Program-made: the position numbers and the translations under genes
Shown: piece after piece, positions 8,277 through 29,638 of the stretch
Numbering within the stretch: the stretch's first letter is position 1
Layout: each line of letters begins with the position of its first letter
The notes under the pieces: model-generated
Database searches by the model: none
What the model was told of the DNA's origin: nothing
What the model saw: the letters and a program-made list of their open reading frames with translations, nothing else
Assembly: GCA_007116145.1 (NCBI GenBank)
Contig: SKJB01000066.1
Span: forward strand, 1 to 58,301
Source: Limnochordia bacterium
Lineage (GTDB): Bacteria > Bacillota > Limnochordia > Darwinibacteriales > DTU012
Length of the DNA stretch: 58,301 nucleotides
Direction of reading: 5' to 3'

Positions 8277-8993
8277 CTAAAAACGGAAGGACACTCCAGC
8301 ACCATACGTAGTGGTGGAGAAATCGCCTTTATAATCCGCTCCAGATGCACCTTTACTTGCATTCACAGCACTATAGGTTATCCCTACTTGTACCCCAACT
8401 GCATCGGTAAAATGGTAGGCAACAGCTCCGCGACCGGTTGCGATCGAACCTGTGATTTTATCTATTTTAGCAAACCCTGCCTGGTCGCTGTCAAACGTAA
8501 AGTTGGCTGCAGGAGTATAGCTTACCGACCCGTTAACAGAGATCTGTGGACTAACAGCAAATTTTACATCGCCTTTACCATAAATACCCCACCCATCAAG
8601 GGTATCCTTGTCTGTGGTATTGACCGCGATGTTAGCTTTAGCATATCCAGCACCTAGCGAGAAAGCCATGCTAGGATCGGCCAACAAACGATATTTTGCG
8701 CCAACTGTTAATACATCCTGTTTAAACAATTCATCTGCAGGTAACTTATCAAAGTCAGCTGCACCCTTCTTTTGATACGCCCAGCTTGATGCAAAACTAG
8801 CGTCTACTAATACATTGGAATATACTTCTACTTCACCATTAAGTGATAAGGCCCAATCTTTTGTCGATACAGCATCATAACTACCGTTACCCATCATATA
8901 AAGACCATCAAGACTAACCTGCGACTGTGCCATAACAGCACCGCTGCCAAGTAAAACAGCTAAAACCATACTCAGTACAATGACTTTTTTCAA
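8277..8993 (-). CDS. Small outer-membrane beta-barrel-like protein (238 aa), TTG start
   Basis: A 238-residue secreted protein. Residues 1-22 are a signal peptide (KKVIVLSMVLAVLLGSGAVM, Ala before QSQ). The mature part alternates polar and hydrophobic residues in strands, many ending in Ala/Tyr/Phe (ALSLNGEVEVY, TVGAKYRLL, FSLGAGYAKANIAV), and it ends GAGVSFRF. A terminal Phe and about eight to ten strands fit a small OmpA/OmpW-like barrel. No family could be named. The start codon is TTG at 8993: AGGAGG lies nine bases upstream, and the nearby ATG at 9000 is followed at once by a stop. A promoter lies at 9044-9073. Confidence 0.75.
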   Translation of the reverse strand: MKKVIVLSMVLAVLLGSGAVMAQSQVSLDGLYMMGNGSYDAVSTKDWALSLNGEVEVYSNVLVDASFASSWAYQKKGAADFDKLPADELFKQDVLTVGAKYRLLADPSMAFSLGAGYAKANIAVNTTDKDTLDGWGIYGKGDVKFAVSPQISVNGSVSYTPAANFTFDSDQAGFAKIDKITGSIATGRGAVAYHFTDAVGVQVGITYSAVNASKGASGADYKGDFSTTTYGAGVSFRF

Positions 8994-15894: not shown

Positions 15895-15920
15895 AGGAGG
15901 GGTTTAATATTCCCCCTCCT
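15895..15920 (-). terminator. Terminator enclosing the stop codon of the deacetylase gene
   Basis: AGGAGGGG (15895-15902) and CCCCTCCT (15913-15920) form a perfect eight-base-pair stem; the minus-strand stop codon of the YibQ-type gene lies in the loop, and TTGTTT follows. It separates this gene from uvrB. Confidence 0.7.
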
Positions 15921-17169
15921 CGCTCTGTTCTGTATACGCCGTTGTTACTAACTCTGGATGCGTTAACACCGATGAAACGGGCACAAGTTGTACACCTGAC
16001 TCTACGATTTCGGGAATCATCTCCCATAGAGCTGTCGCTGTATGCACGCGCACATGCCCGATCACAATAGCTTGTCCTCGGCGCTTCGCCATTTGGATGG
16101 CTAGACGAATTTGGTCTTTTATTGCTTCTGTTTCATTTACATTATCGAGAAAAAAATCATTAATGGCATACGGTAATTCAATCATCTCGGCTATCGTCTG
16201 CGTAATTGTGAGCGGCGAAGTTCGACTGTCTAAAAAGAATAATTCCAGTTCTTTTAAGGTTGCAAGCACAACCTCCATGGTATGCGGATCCGTTGTTGCC
16301 TTAGAACCCATATGATTATTCATCCCAGATACCATTGGCAAATGCTGTAAGTTACTTAGCAATCGACTCCGAATCTCGTCACCACTCATATCCACATAAA
16401 TCCCGCCGGGACCCATATCGAGATACACATTTAACGGTTGCATAGGTTGGTGTAAGATAACCTCATGCCCCAAACTTGCAGCGCGATGAGCTAACTCCTG
16501 CGACTGTGCTAAATACGGTAATACAGCCATGGTAAGCGGAAACGGGTAGGACAATAACGGTTCTGCTGCTCGAGATCTGTAACCCCAATCATCAATCACT
16601 ATGGCTAATTTTGGTTGAAAGTCCTCACTAGCAATCGATAACCATTCACTGCCGAGGCCATCTCCTCCCTCTTGCAAAGAACGAGCTTGTCCACCATGTA
16701 GCGGTGTAGCACTGTTAATCTCCACTTCATGAACAATTACTGCCGTTTTCAAAGAGGGCAAGACTTGTCCCACCTGCAAATAAGCGTGCTGCGTAGTGTC
16801 ATCAATCACTACATCAATTTGATATTTCTGTTCGCGTAAATTCGCCACTAATTGAGTAACCGTCTCACGTAAATCCAGTTTAAAATCTGTGGGTACTATC
16901 CACAATACATCCTGTGTTTTCTGCCACTCTATCAGAGTATCATCAACAACTTTTTGTTTGAGACTAGTTTCCACCTGTTCATAAGCCATAAGCAGATACC
17001 CTTGTTCCAACCAAAAAGTGCTGTCCCAATTCTCTGGGTTAACGAAGTCAAGTCGAAGCAGCGGCGTGGCTTGTGGAGCGGTCACAACGCCAAAGGCAAT
17101 ACTACTGAGTATAAAAAACATAAGTGCAAATAGGAAGAGCCGTTGCCTGCTATACCGATAGATAACCAC
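15904..17169 (-). CDS. Divergent polysaccharide deacetylase (YibQ/DUF610 family)
   Basis: A 421-residue membrane-anchored protein with one N-terminal transmembrane segment (about 8-28), a linker of about 170 residues and a C-terminal divergent polysaccharide deacetylase domain. Visible family motifs: VIDDWG, HQPMQP, NNHMGS, DSRT and FLDN, corresponding to the metal- and substrate-binding loops of the NodB-like barrel. It probably acts on peptidoglycan or another envelope glycan outside the membrane. I place the start at GTG 17169, where AAGGGG lies eight bases upstream and the stop of the MinJ-like gene overlaps by one base (TAGTG); a longer frame begins at 17211. In other bacteria YibQ genes often follow envC and ctpA, which matches this neighbourhood. 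Confidence 0.88.
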   Translation of the reverse strand: MVIYRYSRQRLFLFALMFFILSSIAFGVVTAPQATPLLRLDFVNPENWDSTFWLEQGYLLMAYEQVETSLKQKVVDDTLIEWQKTQDVLWIVPTDFKLDLRETVTQLVANLREQKYQIDVVIDDTTQHAYLQVGQVLPSLKTAVIVHEVEINSATPLHGGQARSLQEGGDGLGSEWLSIASEDFQPKLAIVIDDWGYRSRAAEPLLSYPFPLTMAVLPYLAQSQELAHRAASLGHEVILHQPMQPLNVYLDMGPGGIYVDMSGDEIRSRLLSNLQHLPMVSGMNNHMGSKATTDPHTMEVVLATLKELELFFLDSRTSPLTITQTIAEMIELPYAINDFFLDNVNETEAIKDQIRLAIQMAKRRGQAIVIGHVRVHTATALWEMIPEIVESGVQLVPVSSVLTHPELVTTAYTEQSEEGEY

Positions 17170-18431
17170 TAACTCGACCCCTTTCCGCAATTTCTTAAAC
17201 GGCGAAACCACGACTTCAATGCTCCTTGTTTCACTTGGATGTACATCTGTTGTTTCCGATCTGGAGCAGGAATAATGCCAATTGGTGGAACTTTACCTTT
17301 GTAACTTACTGTGCGCTGTTCTTCACCTTTAACCATATTTTGCACCACAAGAAGTGGATCAATAATCCAGGGAGTCATTTCGTCGAGGAGATGCTGTGCA
17401 CTATTAATCGGTACTCCATTAACGCTGATAATCACATCACCTGTGCATAATCCCATTTTTTCCGCTGGCGAATTGGGATAGACATCTAATACCATGACTC
17501 CATCAGCGTAAAAGAATAGGGGTTTTTCCAGTTTTTCTCTACGCATACCCCGATAAATCACCCATTCATGACCAAACGGAGCAAACAGCACGACTAGTAG
17601 GACTAGTGCAGGTACACGATCTGCCATCAAAGCTAACCCCAATAACACTCCACTATATAGGAGCAAATTCCTGGAAGAATGGGCAACCTTAACCTTTGGT
17701 AGACTAGTAAGAGCCATATCACTGTACCCAAGCGCAGCCACCACGGGGAACATTATATACACAAAGGAATGGTCCATAGGCAGTAGGGTATTAGGCTGTA
17801 GCAGTGGCCACCACTCAGGCATAGCAATTGCGGCAAAGTCAATACTACTATTTAGCATTGCAATTCCAAGTAAAGCTACAAAGGGTAACGGCCAAAAACA
17901 TTGCATGCTGAATCCACCCACCACCTCACCGTTGGCGTGCTTAATGTAGATAGGTGAAGCCGTTTGGTAGCCATGAAACCGAATGAGGACCGCTTCCACA
18001 AAGTGTAGCACCGCAACAAGAGCCATGAGCGCTGGAATATCAACCTTAGGTACTCCGAATAGTAGATGCAACATACTAATAAGTCCCGCTGCATAGGAGA
18101 AACAGAGAAATCTCGGGTGAACCAGCATTAGAATAATGGCAGTGAACCAAAGATATAAAATACCAGTATCAGACAGAGAAATACCAATAATGATAAAAAT
18201 ACCACTAGCCAACAATCCACCAAAGAGTCCATATCCGAGGCTATTTACTGTATCCTGAAGTGGCGTCCCTCGCACTAAGCCAAACATTCGTTTGCGCATG
18301 ATGTGTACGCGCCTATACTGACTGTGAACTAAGAAAAACACCACACCGATAATAAGCAAATAGCGAGGATCGCCTAATACCACAGGTAATGTTTGAAAAA
18401 ATAGTAACCATAAGTCCCAAATGCTATTCAT
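17169..18431 (-). CDS. MinJ-like polytopic PDZ protein
   Basis: A 420-residue membrane protein with about eight hydrophobic segments (residues 10-290) and a C-terminal PDZ domain (about 305-385; VMVLDVYPNSPAEKMGLCTGDVIISVNG). In B. subtilis the protein at this place, between ctpB and uvrB, is MinJ (YvjD), which bridges DivIVA and MinD in division-site selection and has the same design. Synteny and architecture support the call; sequence identity was not measured. GGAGG lies eight bases before the ATG. A terminator separates it from the upstream protease gene, and its stop overlaps the start of the deacetylase gene. Confidence 0.75.
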   Translation of the reverse strand: MNSIWDLWLLFFQTLPVVLGDPRYLLIIGVVFFLVHSQYRRVHIMRKRMFGLVRGTPLQDTVNSLGYGLFGGLLASGIFIIIGISLSDTGILYLWFTAIILMLVHPRFLCFSYAAGLISMLHLLFGVPKVDIPALMALVAVLHFVEAVLIRFHGYQTASPIYIKHANGEVVGGFSMQCFWPLPFVALLGIAMLNSSIDFAAIAMPEWWPLLQPNTLLPMDHSFVYIMFPVVAALGYSDMALTSLPKVKVAHSSRNLLLYSGVLLGLALMADRVPALVLLVVLFAPFGHEWVIYRGMRREKLEKPLFFYADGVMVLDVYPNSPAEKMGLCTGDVIISVNGVPINSAQHLLDEMTPWIIDPLLVVQNMVKGEEQRTVSYKGKVPPIGIIPAPDRKQQMYIQVKQGALKSWFRRLRNCGKGSS

Positions 18432-18492: not shown

Positions 18493-19692
18493 CTACTGCA
18501 GTTGCTCCAATAAAACTTCCAAGGCTTTCTGCAATTGTCTATCCTCCACCTCTTCATTGTTGAAGAAAATAGCTTCAGCTTCTTCATCCGAGACTTCGAC
18601 AATGATATCCGGAACAATACCAACCTTATTGATATCGTGCCCTCCTGCTGTGAGATACGCCTGTTCCGTAACGGTTAAAGCGCTACCGTCACGTAACGGA
18701 TAAACCGTTTGTACGAGTCCCTTACCAAACGTCGTGGTTCCGACGAGAGTCGCGAGTTGGTGATCACGCAATGCTCCAGCAACAATCTCAGACGCACTAG
18801 CGCTAGATCCATTCAGCAATATCACAATCGGGATTGGTTTGCGTGTTCCTCGCGAGGAAGCCTCATACCCCGTCCGGTTGCCATTGCGGTCTTCTAGGTA
18901 GACCAGCGGACCACTGCCGATAAACTCATTCGCTATTTGCAGTGACGCTGACAGTGTACCTCCTGGATTAAAACGCAAATCCATTATGAGTGCTTGCATT
19001 CCCTGTGCGTCTAAAGTAGCTAAAGCTTGCCTAACTTCCTGGTATGTCCGATCAGAAAAAGTAGCTAGATCAAAATATCCAATATTATGCTCAAACATCT
19101 TCACTTCACTGACGGAATCTACATTGATGATGGCCCGCACAATAGGAACCTCAAGCTGTTCTTCATTACGCAGTACTGTAATTGTTAAACCTGTACCAGG
19201 ATCACCACGCATCAAGCTTACAGCTTCGTTCAACGACATATGCTTGGTTGTTTTACCGTCAATCGCTATTATCTTGTCATTACTTCGCAAACCAGCACGC
19301 TCGCCAGGAGTGCTTCTAATGGGTGAAATAATGGTCAGCTGTTCTTCTCGCATCCCGACCACAATACCTATCCCACCAAAGGCACCTTGATTGCGACTAA
19401 CCATCTGCTGGTAGGACTCTTGATCCATATAATTTGTATACGGATCTCCCACTGCCTCTGCTATCATCCCATTAATCGTCCCTGTTGTTACATAGGATCG
19501 CAATAGTTCGAACGTACTTACCGGCTTATAATACCGACTTTTGATTAGAGCTACAACTTCCGTAACATGACCTATATTCTCAAACCGCGCTTCTTCACTA
19601 ATTGATTCAACACCAGAAAACACAGTTCCGTAGACAATAGATACCGTTAACAGTACGACGATAAGCGCTATAATTGACGTTCTGCGCTTCAC
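18493..19692 (-). CDS. S41-family carboxy-terminal processing protease (CtpA/CtpB)
   Basis: A 399-residue exported serine protease with an N-terminal membrane anchor (5-25), a PDZ domain (about 100-185; APGERAGLRSNDKIIAIDG-like segment at 125-146) and an S41 catalytic core. The Ser-Lys dyad is Ser299 (GSSASASE) and Lys324 (TTFGKG), spaced 25 residues apart as in CtpA/CtpB. Relatives trim membrane or envelope proteins and regulate murein hydrolases; B. subtilis CtpB acts in sporulation signalling. It follows the LytM-domain protein gene, whose product is a natural candidate partner. Start is GTG at 19692; its ribosome site is weak. Confidence 0.93.
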   Translation of the reverse strand: MKRRTSIIALIVVLLTVSIVYGTVFSGVESISEEARFENIGHVTEVVALIKSRYYKPVSTFELLRSYVTTGTINGMIAEAVGDPYTNYMDQESYQQMVSRNQGAFGGIGIVVGMREEQLTIISPIRSTPGERAGLRSNDKIIAIDGKTTKHMSLNEAVSLMRGDPGTGLTITVLRNEEQLEVPIVRAIINVDSVSEVKMFEHNIGYFDLATFSDRTYQEVRQALATLDAQGMQALIMDLRFNPGGTLSASLQIANEFIGSGPLVYLEDRNGNRTGYEASSRGTRKPIPIVILLNGSSASASEIVAGALRDHQLATLVGTTTFGKGLVQTVYPLRDGSALTVTEQAYLTAGGHDINKVGIVPDIIVEVSDEEAEAIFFNNEEVEDRQLQKALEVLLEQLQ

Positions 19693-19795: not shown

Positions 19796-20950
19796 TTATA
19801 ACCAGATCATAGGATCTACATGCGTATTCTGCTCGCGCACCTCAAAATGTAAATGCGGTCCGGTACTAATTCCAGTGCTACCCACTAAGGCAATAGTGTC
19901 TCCTTTACGAACTCGTTCACCTGCTCCCACAAGTAACTCTGCAGCATGAGCATAAAACGTGGATAGACCCTGTCCATGATCAATGACAACTGTGAGCCCA
20001 TAACCACCCAAAGACTCACTAACCGTAACGATGCCAGGAGCTACAGCATAAATCGGAGTGCCCACCGGTGCTGCAATATCGATTCCAGTATGAAAACGCT
20101 GTTCATTATAGATGGGATGCACTCGAGTGCCATACGGCGATGTGACTCTACCCTCCACCGCTAATGGCCACAGAAGAGATTCTCCTCTTCGAATCGGAAA
20201 ACCAGTCGCTACTTTTGCTTGGAGCACCCGCTCAATGTCCAATGATTTTTTCACTTCATTCGCTAGTATTCGCTGTATCGTATATGCTTGTTGCCGGGTG
20301 TCTGTCAACGCTCTTTGTTGTTGCGCAATATCTACATTTGTTTCACGGATAATGGCTTCTAACCCAGTTAATTCTGTTTCCAATTTCTGCTTTGTTTGTG
20401 TTAACTGTTTCACCGAATCATATATGAAGCGTTGCTCAGTTGTTACATCGACATAGTTCTCCTTAGCACTAGCAAACGCCTGCCCATGACTAAATACAAG
20501 ATAGTCCAAAAAAGCCCATTCGCTTAACAACGATCGGATCGAAAAGCGCTCAGCCAGACCCACCCAAAAACTAGGCTTAGCTTGACGCGCGCTAATCATG
20601 GATTGGGTTAATTGATCTGCTAGTTGATGATATAGTACATCGAGCTCACCATGTTCAGTACGTATCCTATCAAGAAACGCTTGTTTCCTCGCTAATTCTC
20701 CATGGACCGCACTTAATTCAGGCCTAATTCTATCCATGTGTTGTCTATAGTCCTGTAATACTATGCGCTGACGAGCGATACTAGAAACAAGATCGTGCTC
20801 TTGTTTAGTGACTGTCCTCAACTTGTTTTCGTGCTCTGTAACCCCTCTATAAATTGCGTTTAACTCCTGACGTGTACCGCTAATCGGTCCAGCACTTGCT
20901 GGTAGTGCAAATAGTAACGCAAAGAAGATCGTACCTGCTAAGATGCGCAT
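19796..20950 (-). CDS. EnvC-like murein hydrolase: coiled coil plus M23 (LytM) domain
   Basis: A 384-residue secreted protein: signal peptide 1-20 (ends ASA before GPISG), long coiled coil (about 25-245) with a break near 125-165, and an M23/LytM domain (about 265-384). The zinc ligands are all present: His287 and Asp291 (HTGID), His335, and His366/His368 (PHLHFE). E. coli EnvC has lost these residues and only activates amidases, so this protein is likely an active endopeptidase, closer to Bacillus CwlO in logic. It overlaps the shortened FtsX gene by 13 bases. FtsX ectodomains recruit such coiled-coil proteins. Likely role: controlled peptidoglycan cleavage during growth or division. Confidence 0.9.
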   Translation of the reverse strand: MRILAGTIFFALLFALPASAGPISGTRQELNAIYRGVTEHENKLRTVTKQEHDLVSSIARQRIVLQDYRQHMDRIRPELSAVHGELARKQAFLDRIRTEHGELDVLYHQLADQLTQSMISARQAKPSFWVGLAERFSIRSLLSEWAFLDYLVFSHGQAFASAKENYVDVTTEQRFIYDSVKQLTQTKQKLETELTGLEAIIRETNVDIAQQQRALTDTRQQAYTIQRILANEVKKSLDIERVLQAKVATGFPIRRGESLLWPLAVEGRVTSPYGTRVHPIYNEQRFHTGIDIAAPVGTPIYAVAPGIVTVSESLGGYGLTVVIDHGQGLSTFYAHAAELLVGAGERVRKGDTIALVGSTGISTGPHLHFEVREQNTHVDPMIWL

Positions 20951-21459
20951 GGATTACCACCACCCTTAGCCTTACGAATGACCCAGAGCATACCGAACCC
21001 ACCAATTGCAGTGGTTAGGACAAGTAAAACACGACTGATTGTTTCACTGAAGGTGGTAAACCAAGCGATCTTCTCAAAGGCATCTGTTGGATAGGAAGTA
21101 TACTCAATACCTTTGATTTCTTGTATCTGTGCATAGACCCGACTCGCATTGCTCGGGTGTACAATGACCTCCACCATATCAGGCAGTGGATTTACCCCAT
21201 CCCAAGCATATCCTAGTGTAGCTTGAAAATCTGCTAGCGCTTGTTCTTTATCCATATAATTCGTGGCCATAACCCCATCAAGTACATTAAGCTCCTGTAC
21301 GACAAATTGTGCACTCGCTTCTTCCTCTAAAAACACTCGTAATCCACTATCAAAGGTAATTTGCCGACTAAAACTCTGTAAGCTCAAGGCTGACATACCT
21401 AGTAGAAGACACATCATTACTGTAACCATAAAAACAAGAACACATTGTTTTGCTCTCAT
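20938..21459 (-). CDS. Shortened FtsX-like protein: ectodomain and two TM segments, no permease half
   Basis: A 173-residue protein with TM1 (about 8-28), an FtsX-type extracellular domain (about 33-130; DSGLRVFLEEEASA, MDKEQALADFQ, PLPDMVEVIV) and TM2 (about 143-161), ending a few residues later with WVIRKAKGGG. Typical FtsX has about 295 residues and four TM segments; the C-terminal permease part is absent and no remnant follows because the LytM gene begins in the overlap. No FtsE ATPase gene is upstream (YitT and the promoter occupy that space). Start ATG has GGAGGGGG upstream. It may tether or activate the EnvC-like protein without ATP control, or work with FtsE encoded elsewhere. Confidence 0.82.
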   Translation of the reverse strand: MRAKQCVLVFMVTVMMCLLLGMSALSLQSFSRQITFDSGLRVFLEEEASAQFVVQELNVLDGVMATNYMDKEQALADFQATLGYAWDGVNPLPDMVEVIVHPSNASRVYAQIQEIKGIEYTSYPTDAFEKIAWFTTFSETISRVLLVLTTAIGGFGMLWVIRKAKGGGNPCAS

Positions 21460-21509
21460 AGATCCACCCCCTCCAATAACTTATGTTAGTTACTGTATCA
21501 GACCTTACC

Positions 21510-21538
21510 ATTATAGACCAAGCTAATGTGATAAACAA
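21510..21538 (-). promoter_or_regulatory. Sigma-A promoter of the ftsX-like/envC-like operon
   Basis: Minus strand: -35 TTGTTT (21533-21538), 17-base spacer, -10 TATAAT (21510-21515, perfect). It lies 51 bases before the FtsX-like ATG and marks this gene as the first of its operon, with no ftsE in front. Confidence 0.65.
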
Positions 21539-21585: not shown

Positions 21586-22428
21586 TTAACCTCGGGTAAA
21601 ACCTTCGCCTAGGACTTCGTGAACATCGCCAATCACTACAAAGGCATTCGGATCGGCTTCATAGACAATCCTTTTTAGCTGAGAAATTTCCGAACGAGCC
21701 ACAATCACAAATAATACATCTCTATCCGCTCCCGTAAAAACTCCTCTGCCTTGCAGTGCAGTCGCTCCTCGCTCCAAACGATGAATAATGGCTTGACCGA
21801 TTAAATCCGGATTGACAGAAATAATGAAGGCTGCTTTCGCATAGCTTTGTCCCTCTTGCACAACATCAATCGCCTTCGTTGTAATAAAAACAGCAATAAG
21901 TGCATATAAAGCTAATTCAGGTCCAAAAACAAAGCCTGCTAGTGCAATAACCACCCCATCCACAATCAGCAAGGCTTGCCCGACACTTGTGGGAAAATAG
22001 CGCGCCAGGAGTTGGGCAGCCATATCTGTACCACCTGTTGATCCTCCATGTCGAAATGCTATTCCTAGACCGATGCCAGCGATTACACCTCCGTAGATGG
22101 AAGCAAGAAGTGGATCATTTGTGACCGGGACGGCATAGTGACCAAATACATCGACTAAAATAGCCATGCTTATCGCCCCAAAAAGCGTTTTAGCTCCAAA
22201 CATCGCACCAAACGTCTTGAGGCTCACAATAAAGAGAGGAATATTTAAAACCAACATAGTAGCTCCTACTGGTAAGCGAAGGAGATGGAAGATAACGATG
22301 GCTAAGCCGCTCACACCACCAGCGGCAATCTTACCAGGTATTAAGAACCACGCCAAGGCAAAGGCCGTTACCGCTACCCCTAATAGCACACCAAGATACT
22401 CTTTTAGTACTTTCACAAACTTACTCAT
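21586..22428 (-). CDS. YitT family membrane protein (DUF161 + DUF2179)
   Basis: A 280-residue protein with five to six hydrophobic segments (about 10-175; AWFLIPGKIAAGGVSGLAIV and GGSTGGTDMAAQLL are typical YitT motifs) and a soluble C-terminal DUF2179 domain (about 215-275; GRGVFTGADRDVLFVIVAR). The family is widespread in Firmicutes and has no firmly established substrate. It overlaps the TagA-type gene by eight bases, making it the last gene of the DUF5693-csaB-tagA-yitT operon. Confidence 0.88.
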   Translation of the reverse strand: MSKFVKVLKEYLGVLLGVAVTAFALAWFLIPGKIAAGGVSGLAIVIFHLLRLPVGATMLVLNIPLFIVSLKTFGAMFGAKTLFGAISMAILVDVFGHYAVPVTNDPLLASIYGGVIAGIGLGIAFRHGGSTGGTDMAAQLLARYFPTSVGQALLIVDGVVIALAGFVFGPELALYALIAVFITTKAIDVVQEGQSYAKAAFIISVNPDLIGQAIIHRLERGATALQGRGVFTGADRDVLFVIVARSEISQLKRIVYEADPNAFVVIGDVHEVLGEGFTRG

Positions 22429-26000: not shown

Positions 26001-27104
26001 TACTGTTTCATTTTTAGGTACGCTTCAATCAAGGAATCAATATCCCCATCCATTACTGCACTTACATTACCGATTTCCAGATCAGAGCGATGATCTTTGA
26101 CCATTGTATAGGGACAAAAAACATAGGATCGAATTTGGCTGCCCCAAGCAATCTCAGATTGTTCACCTTTGAGTTGCTTTAATTTCGCCTGTTTTTCCAT
26201 TAATTCCTTTTCCGCTAACCGAGCGCGTAAAACTTTCATGGCGGTATCTTTATTCGCATGCTGGGAACGTTCATTTTGACATTGCACAACAATACCTGAC
26301 GGAATATGAGTAATTCGAATTGCCGAGTCCGTTGTGTTTACATGTTGACCACCCGCCCCACTCGAGCGAAAGGTGTCGACCCGTAGATCCGTGGGATCAA
26401 TAGCAATTTCTACCTCTTCATCCACTTCTGGCACCACCTCTACCGACGCAAACGAGGTATGCCGACGACCAGATGCATCAAACGGTGAAATACGAACTAG
26501 ACGGTGGACTCCTTTCTCCGAACGAAGATACCCAAAGCAATTCAGTCCTGAAACTAAAAGTGTCACACTCTTAATACCTGCTTCATCTCCAGGTAATAGG
26601 TCTAACGTTTCTACACGAAAACCACGGTCTTCCGCCCAGCGTGTATACATGCGCAGTAACATCTGTGCCCAGTCTTGTGACTCCGTCCCACCCGCCCCAG
26701 GATGAATGGATACAATAGCATTGTTTTGATCATAGTCGCCACTGAGCATAGCTGCTAGTTCTATTGTTTCAACCGCTTTCTTTAAGCGAGAAATAGTTTC
26801 CTGCAATTCTGATCGAAGCTCAGAGTCTGCTTCTTCGCTAATCAATTCCAGCATCACATCTGCTTCTTCGGCGATCTCCAAGACATTTTGCCATTGATCC
26901 ACAGTGTGTTTGAGGCCCTTAGCTTCTTGAATTACCTTTTGCGCCGTTTCTTGATCCTCCCAAAAGCCAGGACTAGCCATCAAGTCATCCAATTCACTCA
27001 ATCTTGATGCTTTCTTAGCGACGTCAAAGATAGTCCCTCATTTCTTCAACACGCGCATTATACTCAAAAACTGCATCTCGTAATTCCTTCATTTCCACAA
27101 ACAT
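26000..27104 (-). CDS. prfB: Peptide chain release factor 2 with programmed +1 frameshift
   Basis: RF2, which ends translation at UGA and UAA codons, made from two frames. The first 26 codons run from ATG 27104 to an in-frame TGA at 27024-27026; after a +1 shift on CTTTGAC the second frame continues for 341 codons, giving 367 residues. The stop-recognition tripeptide SPF, which separates RF2 from RF1, and the catalytic GGQ ([14 protein letters not shown]) are both present. The upstream ribosome site is AAGGAG. This is the normal autoregulatory arrangement, not a broken gene. It follows secA with a 15-base gap, as in B. subtilis. Confidence 0.97.
27023..27038 (-). promoter_or_regulatory. Programmed +1 frameshift site of prfB
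   Basis: Minus strand: AGGGACTATCTTTGAC, comprising a Shine-Dalgarno-like AGGG placed three bases before the slip codon CTT, then TGA and C. Low RF2 lets the ribosome shift from CTT to TTT and bypass the stop, so RF2 controls its own level. Confidence 0.95.
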
Positions 27105-27118
27105 CTCAAGATCACTCC

Positions 27119-29638
27119 TTATTTACCATGACATTTTTTATATTTTTTTCCGCTCCCACAAGGACAGGGGTCGTTGCGCCCCGTTTTATCCTCAACTTTA
27201 CGGGGTGTACGATCAACAACCTCGCCCTCACTACCACGATTTGTGGTTGCTTGCTGTAGCCGATCCTTCGCTTGGCGTTGCGCTTGGTTTTCGTCGACTA
27301 ATTGCACTCGAAACAACATACGGATAGAATCTTCTTGAATACTCTCATTCATCGCCTTAAACATTTCAAAAGCCTCGAACTTATATTCCATTAACGGATC
27401 TCGCTGGCCGTAGGCACGGAGCCCAATTCCTTCTCGCAGTTCATCCATGGCCCGTAAATGCTCCATCCACTTGTTATCGATCATCTGTAGCATCACGAGT
27501 TGCTCGATGCGTCGCATCGTTTCACTACCATACTCGGCTTCTCGCTCAGCATACGCGACCTTAGCAGCGTCCCCCATCTGTGTCGCTAATTCCTTAGGTC
27601 TTTGGTTCTCAAACTCTTCCATTGTCAGCTGTAACTTTTTTCCTGTTAAATCCTGATAGCGAGTCATCAATCCAGCATAATCCCACTCTTCTGGGACAAG
27701 TTTCTCGTCTGTATATTGCTCGATAATCTTGGCAAAAAACTTGTCAAATATCTTTTGGATTAAGCCTTCCGTATCCTTCCCAGTTAGAACAGCGCGTCTT
27801 TGTTCATAGATCACTTCCCGCTGTTGATTCATAACATCGTCAAATTGTAGTACTTGCTTACGAATTTCGAAATGATGGTTCTCAACCTTTTTTTGCGCCC
27901 CTTCAATAGCACGGGTGATCTGTGAGTGCTCAATGGGTTGGTCCTCTTCCCACCCGAGTCTCTCCATTATCCCAGCGATCCGATCGGACCCAAATAGCCG
28001 CATTAAGTCATCTTCAAGCGAAGCATAAAAGCGCGTGGAACCAGGGTCTCCCTGACGACCAGATCGACCACGCAACTGATTATCGATCCGGCGAGACTCG
28101 TGACGCTCTGTACCAATGATATGCAGACCACCTTTTGCTTTCACCCCTTCACCTAAAACAATGTCCGTACCACGCCCTGCCATATTCGTAGCGATTGTAA
28201 CAGCGTTCATCTGTCCCGCACCTTTAATAATATCTGCTTCCTTCTCGTGATGTTTGGCATTTAAAACCTGATGAATCACCCCCTGTTGCCCAAGCATCTT
28301 GCTAATCATTTCTGATTTCTGAATCGAGATCGTACCAACAAGCACTGGCTGTCCCGTTTTATGCCTTTCTACCACATCCTCAATAATCGCATTATATTTA
28401 CCCTTGCTCGTTTTATATACAGCATCGGGTGCATCTTGGCGCACCATGGGCTGATTTGTGGGTACCACCACAACATCAACACCATAAATCTTTCGAAATT
28501 CCTGTTCCTCTGTGGCAGCTGTCCCCGTCATACCTGAGAGTTTGCTATACATGCGAAAGTAGTTTTGATATGTAATAGCTGCTAGAGTTTGGCTCTCCTT
28601 AGCAATTTGCACATTTTCCTTTGCTTCAATGGCTTGATGTAATCCATCGGAATATCGTCGTCCTGGCATTAATCGCCCTGTAAACTCATCAACGATCAAT
28701 ACTTCACCGTCTTTTACCACATAGTCGCGGTCGCGAACAAAGAGCGCTTTCGCTTTTAACGCTTGATTCAAATAGTGATTTAATTCGAAATTAGAGTCAT
28801 CAAATAGATTTTCAATTCCTAGGATCTTTTCAACCTTCTCCACGCCTTCTTCTGTAATAGCAATTGTGCGGGCTTTTTCATCGACGGTATAATCTTCCTC
28901 TGCTTTCAACCGAGGAACAATTTGTGAAAATTGGTAATACTGCTTTGTCGAATCCTCTGCCTGCCCAGAAATGATTAATGGAGTGCGGGCTTCATCAACG
29001 AGAATAGAGTCCACCTCATCGACTATGGCATAATTTAGCTCTCTTTGCACTAATTGCTGCGGCGCAGTCACCATATTATCACGGAGATAGTCAAAACCAA
29101 ATTCGTTATTCGTACCATAGGTAATATCTGCTTGATAGGCAGCTCTGCGCTGCGCAAAGTCTAGTCCATGAATGATTACTCCAACAGTAAGACCAAGAAA
29201 TTGGTACACCTGACCCATCCACTCTGCATCGCGCTTGGCTAGATAATCATTTACAGTAATAACATGAACACCCTTACCGGTCAAAGCGTTTAAATACACA
29301 GGCAAAGTGGCAACTAGGGTTTTACCTTCACCAGTCTTCATCTCTGCAATACGACCTTCATGTAATACCATTCCACCCATCATCTGCACATCATAATGAC
29401 GTTGACCTAGAGTCCGCTTCGCCGCCTCACGAACAACTGCAAAAGCCTCAGGCAGAATATCCTCTAAAGTTTCACCATGGCTTAGGCGTTTTTTAAATTC
29501 TATAGTTTTTGCGCTTAATTGTTCATCACTTAAAGGAGTGATCGAAGCTTCCCAGCTATTTATCACTTCTACACTTTCTGCTAATCGTCTAATCACTTTT
29601 GGATTAGGATCAAAAAGCTTCTTAAGCATTCCAAGCAT
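27119..29638 (-). CDS. secA: SecA, preprotein translocase ATPase
   Basis: An 839-residue SecA, the motor that pushes unfolded preproteins through SecYEG. Motifs: Walker A MKTGEGKT (100-107), the DEAD-like [15 protein letters not shown] near 205-220, DMAGRGTDI-type motif ([14 protein letters not shown]), helical scaffold and wing domains, and a C-terminal zinc-binding SEC-C motif ([17 protein letters not shown]) for SecB or lipid contact. I use ATG 29638 (AAGGGG seven bases upstream) rather than a longer frame from 29656. Its position next to prfB is as in Bacillus. Confidence 0.98.

Follow-up and report, generated by a model that had tools for sequence, protein, structure and literature searches.

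A short FtsX without FtsE beside a predicted active M23 hydrolase in Limnochordia: a possible ATP-independent membrane dock

What can an FtsX do when its ATPase is missing? FtsEX is a widely conserved switch that uses ATP to control cell-wall cutting during division or growth. The window analysed here, the whole 58,301-nucleotide stretch of contig SKJB01000066.1 from a bacterium of the Limnochordia, probably diderm Bacillota, encodes an FtsX-like protein of only 173 residues next to an EnvC-like M23 protein, and an earlier note on this DNA had proposed that the locus may work without ATP. We followed this proposal through the anatomy of the two proteins, their relatives and the history of the operon. 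The features of the locus are collected in Table 1.

Table 1. Features of the ftsX-M23 locus and its neighbours (positions in the window)
Feature	Position	Strand	Evidence or remark
PDZ membrane protein, synteny marker	17169..18431	(-)	domain matches, gene order in relatives
S41 C-terminal processing protease	18493..19692	(-)	follows M23 here, as in the canonical ftsEX operons
EnvC-like protein, 384 aa: signal sequence, coiled coil, LytM/M23 domain	19796..20950	(-)	ORF, Pfam, structure-chain matches, model
M23/LytM catalytic domain; ligands H287, D291, H368 and catalytic H335	19811..20098	(-)	Pfam, alignment
F147-L151 (FLDYL)	20498..20512	(-)	in the coil alignment, inside the FtsX-binding segment (141-160) of E. 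coli EnvC
ftsX/M23 gene overlap, 13 nt	20938..20950	(-)	same length in five genomes
Short FtsX, 173 aa: TM1, ectodomain, TM2, basic 12-residue tail	20938..21459	(-)	ORF, profile matches, hydropathy, alignment
TM2, residues 143-161; coupling helix, TM3 and TM4 of full FtsX missing after it	20977..21033	(-)	hydropathy, alignment
FtsX ectodomain PF18075, residues 41-119; X-lobe shortened, NPLP motif retained	21103..21339	(-)	Pfam, alignment
TM1, residues 7-25; no elbow helix ahead	21385..21441	(-)	hydropathy and alignment to full FtsX
Promoter-like TTGTTT-N17-TATAAT	21510..21538	(-)	sequence; similar in G002; under consensus-scan threshold
YitT-family membrane protein, 5'-side neighbour; immediately beside S41 in genomes that have lost ftsX and M23	21586..22428	(-)	domain match, synteny

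The short protein has the FtsX-specific ectodomain between TM1 and TM2 that characterizes FtsX among the Type VII ABC permeases. Pfam FtsX_ECD (PF18075) matched it at 37 bits (cut-off 23.5), a six-member profile of the short FtsX matched the solved FtsX chains 8ymc, 8hd0, 8i6o and 6tpi, and profile-profile comparison of the same family with 16 full-length FtsX gave E=1.9e-20. The NCBIfam FtsX_Gpos model (NF038347) was matched only at positions 27-180 of 296, with 46 bits against the 225 needed. As the earlier note had described, the protein stops just after its second transmembrane segment: hydropathy gave two hydrophobic segments only, followed by 12 mostly polar residues. In the alignment with full FtsX the portion TM1-ectodomain-TM2 is kept, with an X-lobe about 9 residues shorter, and the region before TM1 (elbow) and everything after TM2 are absent, the RRKEIxIMKxVGA segment, TM3 and TM4 included, so that the four TM helices and the TM2-TM3 coupling helix of a Type VII ABC permease were not found in this protein. 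FtsX contacts FtsE mainly through the coupling helix (PMC11139282), the elbow helix sits at the FtsX N-terminus (PMC10694151), and the X-lobe of E. coli FtsX binds EnvC (PMC7668044). Since the elbow helix, the coupling helix and TM3-TM4 are missing, the modules that link FtsX to its ATPase are lost; judged by homology, the kept parts are the hydrolase-binding ones and the lost parts those that connect to FtsE. A frameshifted remnant of the permease half has no space, because the reading frame is closed by a stop eight codons 5' of the start and M23 already starts within ftsX, in agreement with the earlier reading.

A sequencing error or frameshift at 20930-20960 was ruled out, since the 13-nt overlap with the coiled-coil LytM gene recurs at the same length in the relatives G002, G003, G004 and G007, and the two genes are fused in three further genomes. 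The stub has a strong ribosome-binding site, GGAGGGGG. The promoter that had been placed directly in front of ftsX is plausible only. Its -35 box is weak, for which reason the consensus scan did not list it; in G002, the TATAAT box and N17 spacing recur, TTGTCT-N17-TATAAT being found again together with the context TTGGTCTATAATGG.

The adjoining protein resembles the EnvC-like, FtsEX-dependent M23 proteins in having a signal sequence, a long coiled coil and a C-terminal LytM domain. It was matched by PF01551 at 118.9 bits and, across residues 32-384, by EnvC chains; the coil alone found no match among solved structures. Single-sequence AlphaFold models were poor (overall pLDDT 53 and 60), and the model of the M23 protein has two long helices, mostly with pLDDT over 80. 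All zinc ligands were present, as the earlier note had observed, together with the catalytic histidine, and the protein thus lacks the degenerate LytM site of EnvC sensu stricto, the amidase activator. From these intact residues we predict an active peptidoglycan endopeptidase. The suggestion that catalysis had moved into the coiled-coil protein had to be given up: in other Bacillota classes the M23 partners of canonical FtsEX are already ligand-complete. Since all 13 aligned M23 proteins from these outgroup classes keep the zinc ligands, unlike E. coli EnvC, the intact active site is the ancestral Bacillota state and no adaptation to the loss of FtsE.

The coil of this protein carries the segment FLDYL, in which F, D, Y and L are invariant across the six proteins of alignment A2, with FSEYL in G002. 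In an approximate coil alignment FLDYL falls on EnvC 151-155, within the second FtsX-binding segment, which binds FtsX in E. coli (PMC7668044). The conservation lies at a predicted FtsX contact site, and the contact itself is a candidate. The linker between coil and LytM domain is short in the alignment, and no restraining arm of EnvC size is evident.

A survey of related genomes, as had been recommended, found the stub in eight genomes of one family. Five have it as a separate gene with the overlap, G002, G003, G004 and G007 sharing both the short FtsX and the gene order of the window; in the other three (G005, G006, G008) ftsX and M23 form one ORF of 538-539 aa. The fused proteins read TM1-ectodomain-TM2-TM3/signal-coil-LytM, with a third hydrophobic segment and an AxA-type site ahead of the coil, and because this arrangement is kept the hydrolase would still face outside. 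A tree built from six syntenic proteins groups the three fusion genomes as a single clade (support 100) within the family. The gene fusion supports a physical coupling of stub and hydrolase, which is a prediction for the separate proteins. The phylum-wide search for short FtsX covered the best matches listed, and no earlier description of a short or FtsE-less FtsX was found in the literature searched. An FtsX_ECD match in G023 (E=9e-4) was rejected; it sits among chemotaxis genes.

Ectodomain and coil tip also disappear together. Both are present in the eight genomes and both absent in G018, a member of another family of the same order, whose 279-aa M23 protein (L135:3568-4407, (-)) shows three hydrophobic peaks at its N-terminus and has a shortened coil. 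We infer that it derives from a separate FtsX-M23 fusion that later lost its ectodomain. The M23 protein of G001 is compatible with this pattern, for it has no coil tip; no ectodomain was detected there, the contig ending before the ftsX side, and a search for YitT found none.

It is rather probable, in our judgement, that the short FtsX serves as a dock in the membrane, keeping the M23 hydrolase there without ATP. TM1 and TM2 would hold the ectodomain on the outer side of the inner membrane, and the X-lobe would grip the coiled-coil tip of the secreted hydrolase, so that an intrinsically active enzyme would be kept membrane-bound and not free in the periplasm. Such docking would restrain or position the enzyme with no cycles of activation, and the locus would stand on a path from an ABC-driven switch to a one-piece membrane-anchored hydrolase. 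FtsX is known to hold the hydrolase CwlO at the cell surface (PMC6705773), and a tether is favoured over an activator. The shortened X-lobe counts against the dock. In E. coli, EnvC bound to the FtsX ectodomain remains autoinhibited (PMC12505981). By analogy these data speak against simple constitutive activation by the stub, and since the bound EnvC stays autoinhibited the stub may be an inhibitor of the hydrolase instead of a neutral dock.

The main rival to the membrane dock is an allosteric regulator, in which the ectodomain would switch an autoinhibited hydrolase on or keep it off, gated for example by divisome contact or lateral TM interactions. We regard it as a serious but unlikely reading. 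A precedent independent of FtsEX comes from Corynebacteriales, where the ectodomain of Cg1604 (SteB) relieves the autoinhibition of RipA (PMC9897464). The two systems are alike in that a membrane protein acting without FtsEX controls, through its extracellular domain, a coiled-coil peptidoglycan-cutting enzyme, such control by the stub being proposed here. They differ in that SteB combines an unrelated receiver-like fold with an NlpC/P60 enzyme, whereas the window has a reduced FtsX with an M23 enzyme; its ectodomain is FtsX_ECD, and the receiver-like fold was not found in it. Regulation would also agree with the activation of RipC by the extracellular domain of M. tuberculosis FtsX, as a title cited in PMC12505981 has it, with the contact that B. 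subtilis SweD makes with FtsX via a TM segment (PMC6705773), and with an ectodomain that is more conserved than the coil. However, E. coli FtsX-EnvC without ATP-bound FtsE gives no amidase stimulation (PMC11139282), and with a short linker and no evident EnvC-sized restraining arm the autoinhibition that such a regulator requires is putative in this protein.

The stub might instead be a non-functional relic heading for deletion and kept by chance. This would fit the situation elsewhere in the class: in 17 class genomes outside the family with a visible junction, YitT or WecG adjoins S41 with neither ftsX nor M23 between them, both genes are gone from most of the other class members, and the ectodomain has disappeared in G018. 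Against it, eight genomes keep an intact stub frame, with 25-31% identity to the protein of the window in the first alignment, the overlap has the same length across genomes, the fusion is maintained in a monophyletic clade of three species, and the ribosome-binding site is strong. The differences between G005 and G008 at codon positions 1/2/3 are 0.20/0.12/0.53 in the ectodomain, 0.13/0.07/0.50 in the LytM domain and 0.28/0.22/0.40 in the coil. At positions 1 and 2 the ectodomain varies less than the coil and is near to LytM, and by this comparison it is under purifying selection, which makes a relic very unlikely. Because most of the class lives without both genes, the function of the stub is not essential in general.

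The stub might also work with an ABC protein other than FtsE, or with an FtsE encoded in the 3.4% of the genome that is not assembled; this reading has a somewhat smaller chance still. The source genome is 96.6% complete and has about 95 ABC-like matches. Nevertheless, FtsE over the curated cut-off was found in none of the 73 genomes of the class, some of them single contigs of 3.0-3.8 Mb, but in 24 of 28 from other classes of the phylum; no class genome has a full FtsX over cut-off, and the FtsX_ECD profile gave one match only in the source genome, with no second ectodomain. The FtsE bit score is insufficient by itself, the genuine ftsX-adjacent FtsE of G079 having 229 bits and the best class match 231. 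Because this real FtsE scores below some ABC proteins of the class, a tree was made of 17 FtsE and the best 14 FtsE-like ATPases of the source genome, and the two groups split with a bipartition support of 100. The absence of ftsE stated in the earlier note is thereby borne out: a cognate FtsE was found neither in the genome, nor in the class, nor among the 14 ATPases of the source genome in the tree, and profile searches together with the tree ruled out an ftsE or full ftsX elsewhere in the genome. The coupling helix, elbow helix, TM3 and TM4 that an ATPase partner would use are missing as well. Since FtsE and the coupling elements are gone, any action of the stub must be independent of ATP hydrolysis by an FtsE-type ATPase, and to this extent the original proposal stands. 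Other classes offered two observations of their own. The FtsE of G079 (L165) is strongly diverged, adjoins FtsX and forms a deep branch in the FtsE tree, and G084 and G098 have neither an FtsX ectodomain nor FtsE over cut-off, being further independent losses of FtsEX.

On the (-) strand the gene order is YitT, ftsX, M23, S41, PDZ and a PF04748 polysaccharide deacetylase. Full ftsE-ftsX-M23-S41 operons occupy the homologous position in other Bacillota classes: at 16 outgroup loci ftsE stands ahead of an ftsX of 292-322 aa, M23 adjoins ftsX in 14, and S41 lies further on in nearly all. The best explanation of the locus is a remnant of such an ordinary operon from which the ATP motor was removed. 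Horizontal acquisition of a partial gene pair, as opposed to vertical reduction of a native ftsEX operon, is the least probable reading, for although the pair is limited to one family plus the derivative in G018 and most of the class is without it, it sits exactly at the ancestral position ahead of S41 and PDZ, as in the outgroups, and the tree of syntenic proteins unites its carriers in one supported clade. The fuller scenario, to which we give an even chance, is a stepwise dismantling within one class, in which the ATPase and coupling modules went first, a stub-hydrolase fusion followed in one clade, ectodomain and coil tip were jointly lost in G018, and the whole system was dropped elsewhere, the stub being an undescribed ATP-free FtsX that docks an active hydrolase at the membrane. 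The divergent PF04748 gene (15904-17211) has a parallel in E. coli K-12, where yibQ adjoins envC (L180); because a PF04748 gene stands near an EnvC-like gene in two distant bacteria, a shared wall function is suggested.

Compared with the FtsEX-EnvC/CwlO/RipC/PcsB systems (Type VII ABC mechanotransmitters), the window shares the FtsX ectodomain fold, the NPLP X-lobe region, the two flanking TM segments, the adjoining coiled-coil partner gene and the operon position ahead of S41. It differs in a stub without FtsE, elbow helix, coupling helix and TM3-TM4, which FtsE cannot drive and which is sometimes fused to the hydrolase in relatives. The hydrolase is like the EnvC-like M23 proteins of Bacillota ftsE-ftsX-M23-ctp operons in its signal sequence, antiparallel coil and LytM domain of predicted activity; here, in contrast, the partner FtsX is a stub, and the FtsX-binding tip has diverged and is lost in G018 and G001. 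In the fused form an active M23 enzyme would be anchored in the membrane, as the endopeptidases of the MepM and ShyA type are; these are held by a single N-terminal helix, whereas the anchor of the fused form would be FtsX TM1-ectodomain-TM2. In a natural FtsX of which the hydrolase-gripping half remains, two jobs proposed for FtsX come apart, retention of the enzyme at the membrane and its ATP-driven firing, and this separation is testable. Meanwhile, the natural fusions are ready-made single-chain FtsX-hydrolase complexes for structure work, and the series of full operon, stub, fusion and loss clearly illustrates the dismantling of an ABC machine.

Two further observations were made in the window. 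At 26960-27125, prfB (RF2) has the classical programmed +1 frameshift, reading ...DYL at CTT TGA C and then DVAKKAS... in the next frame; its start in the ORF list, at a TTG, is too late. The proteins encoded at 1164-2501 and 8277-8993 are predicted to be secreted and, by eye, are possibly beta-barrels, which would fit an outer membrane.
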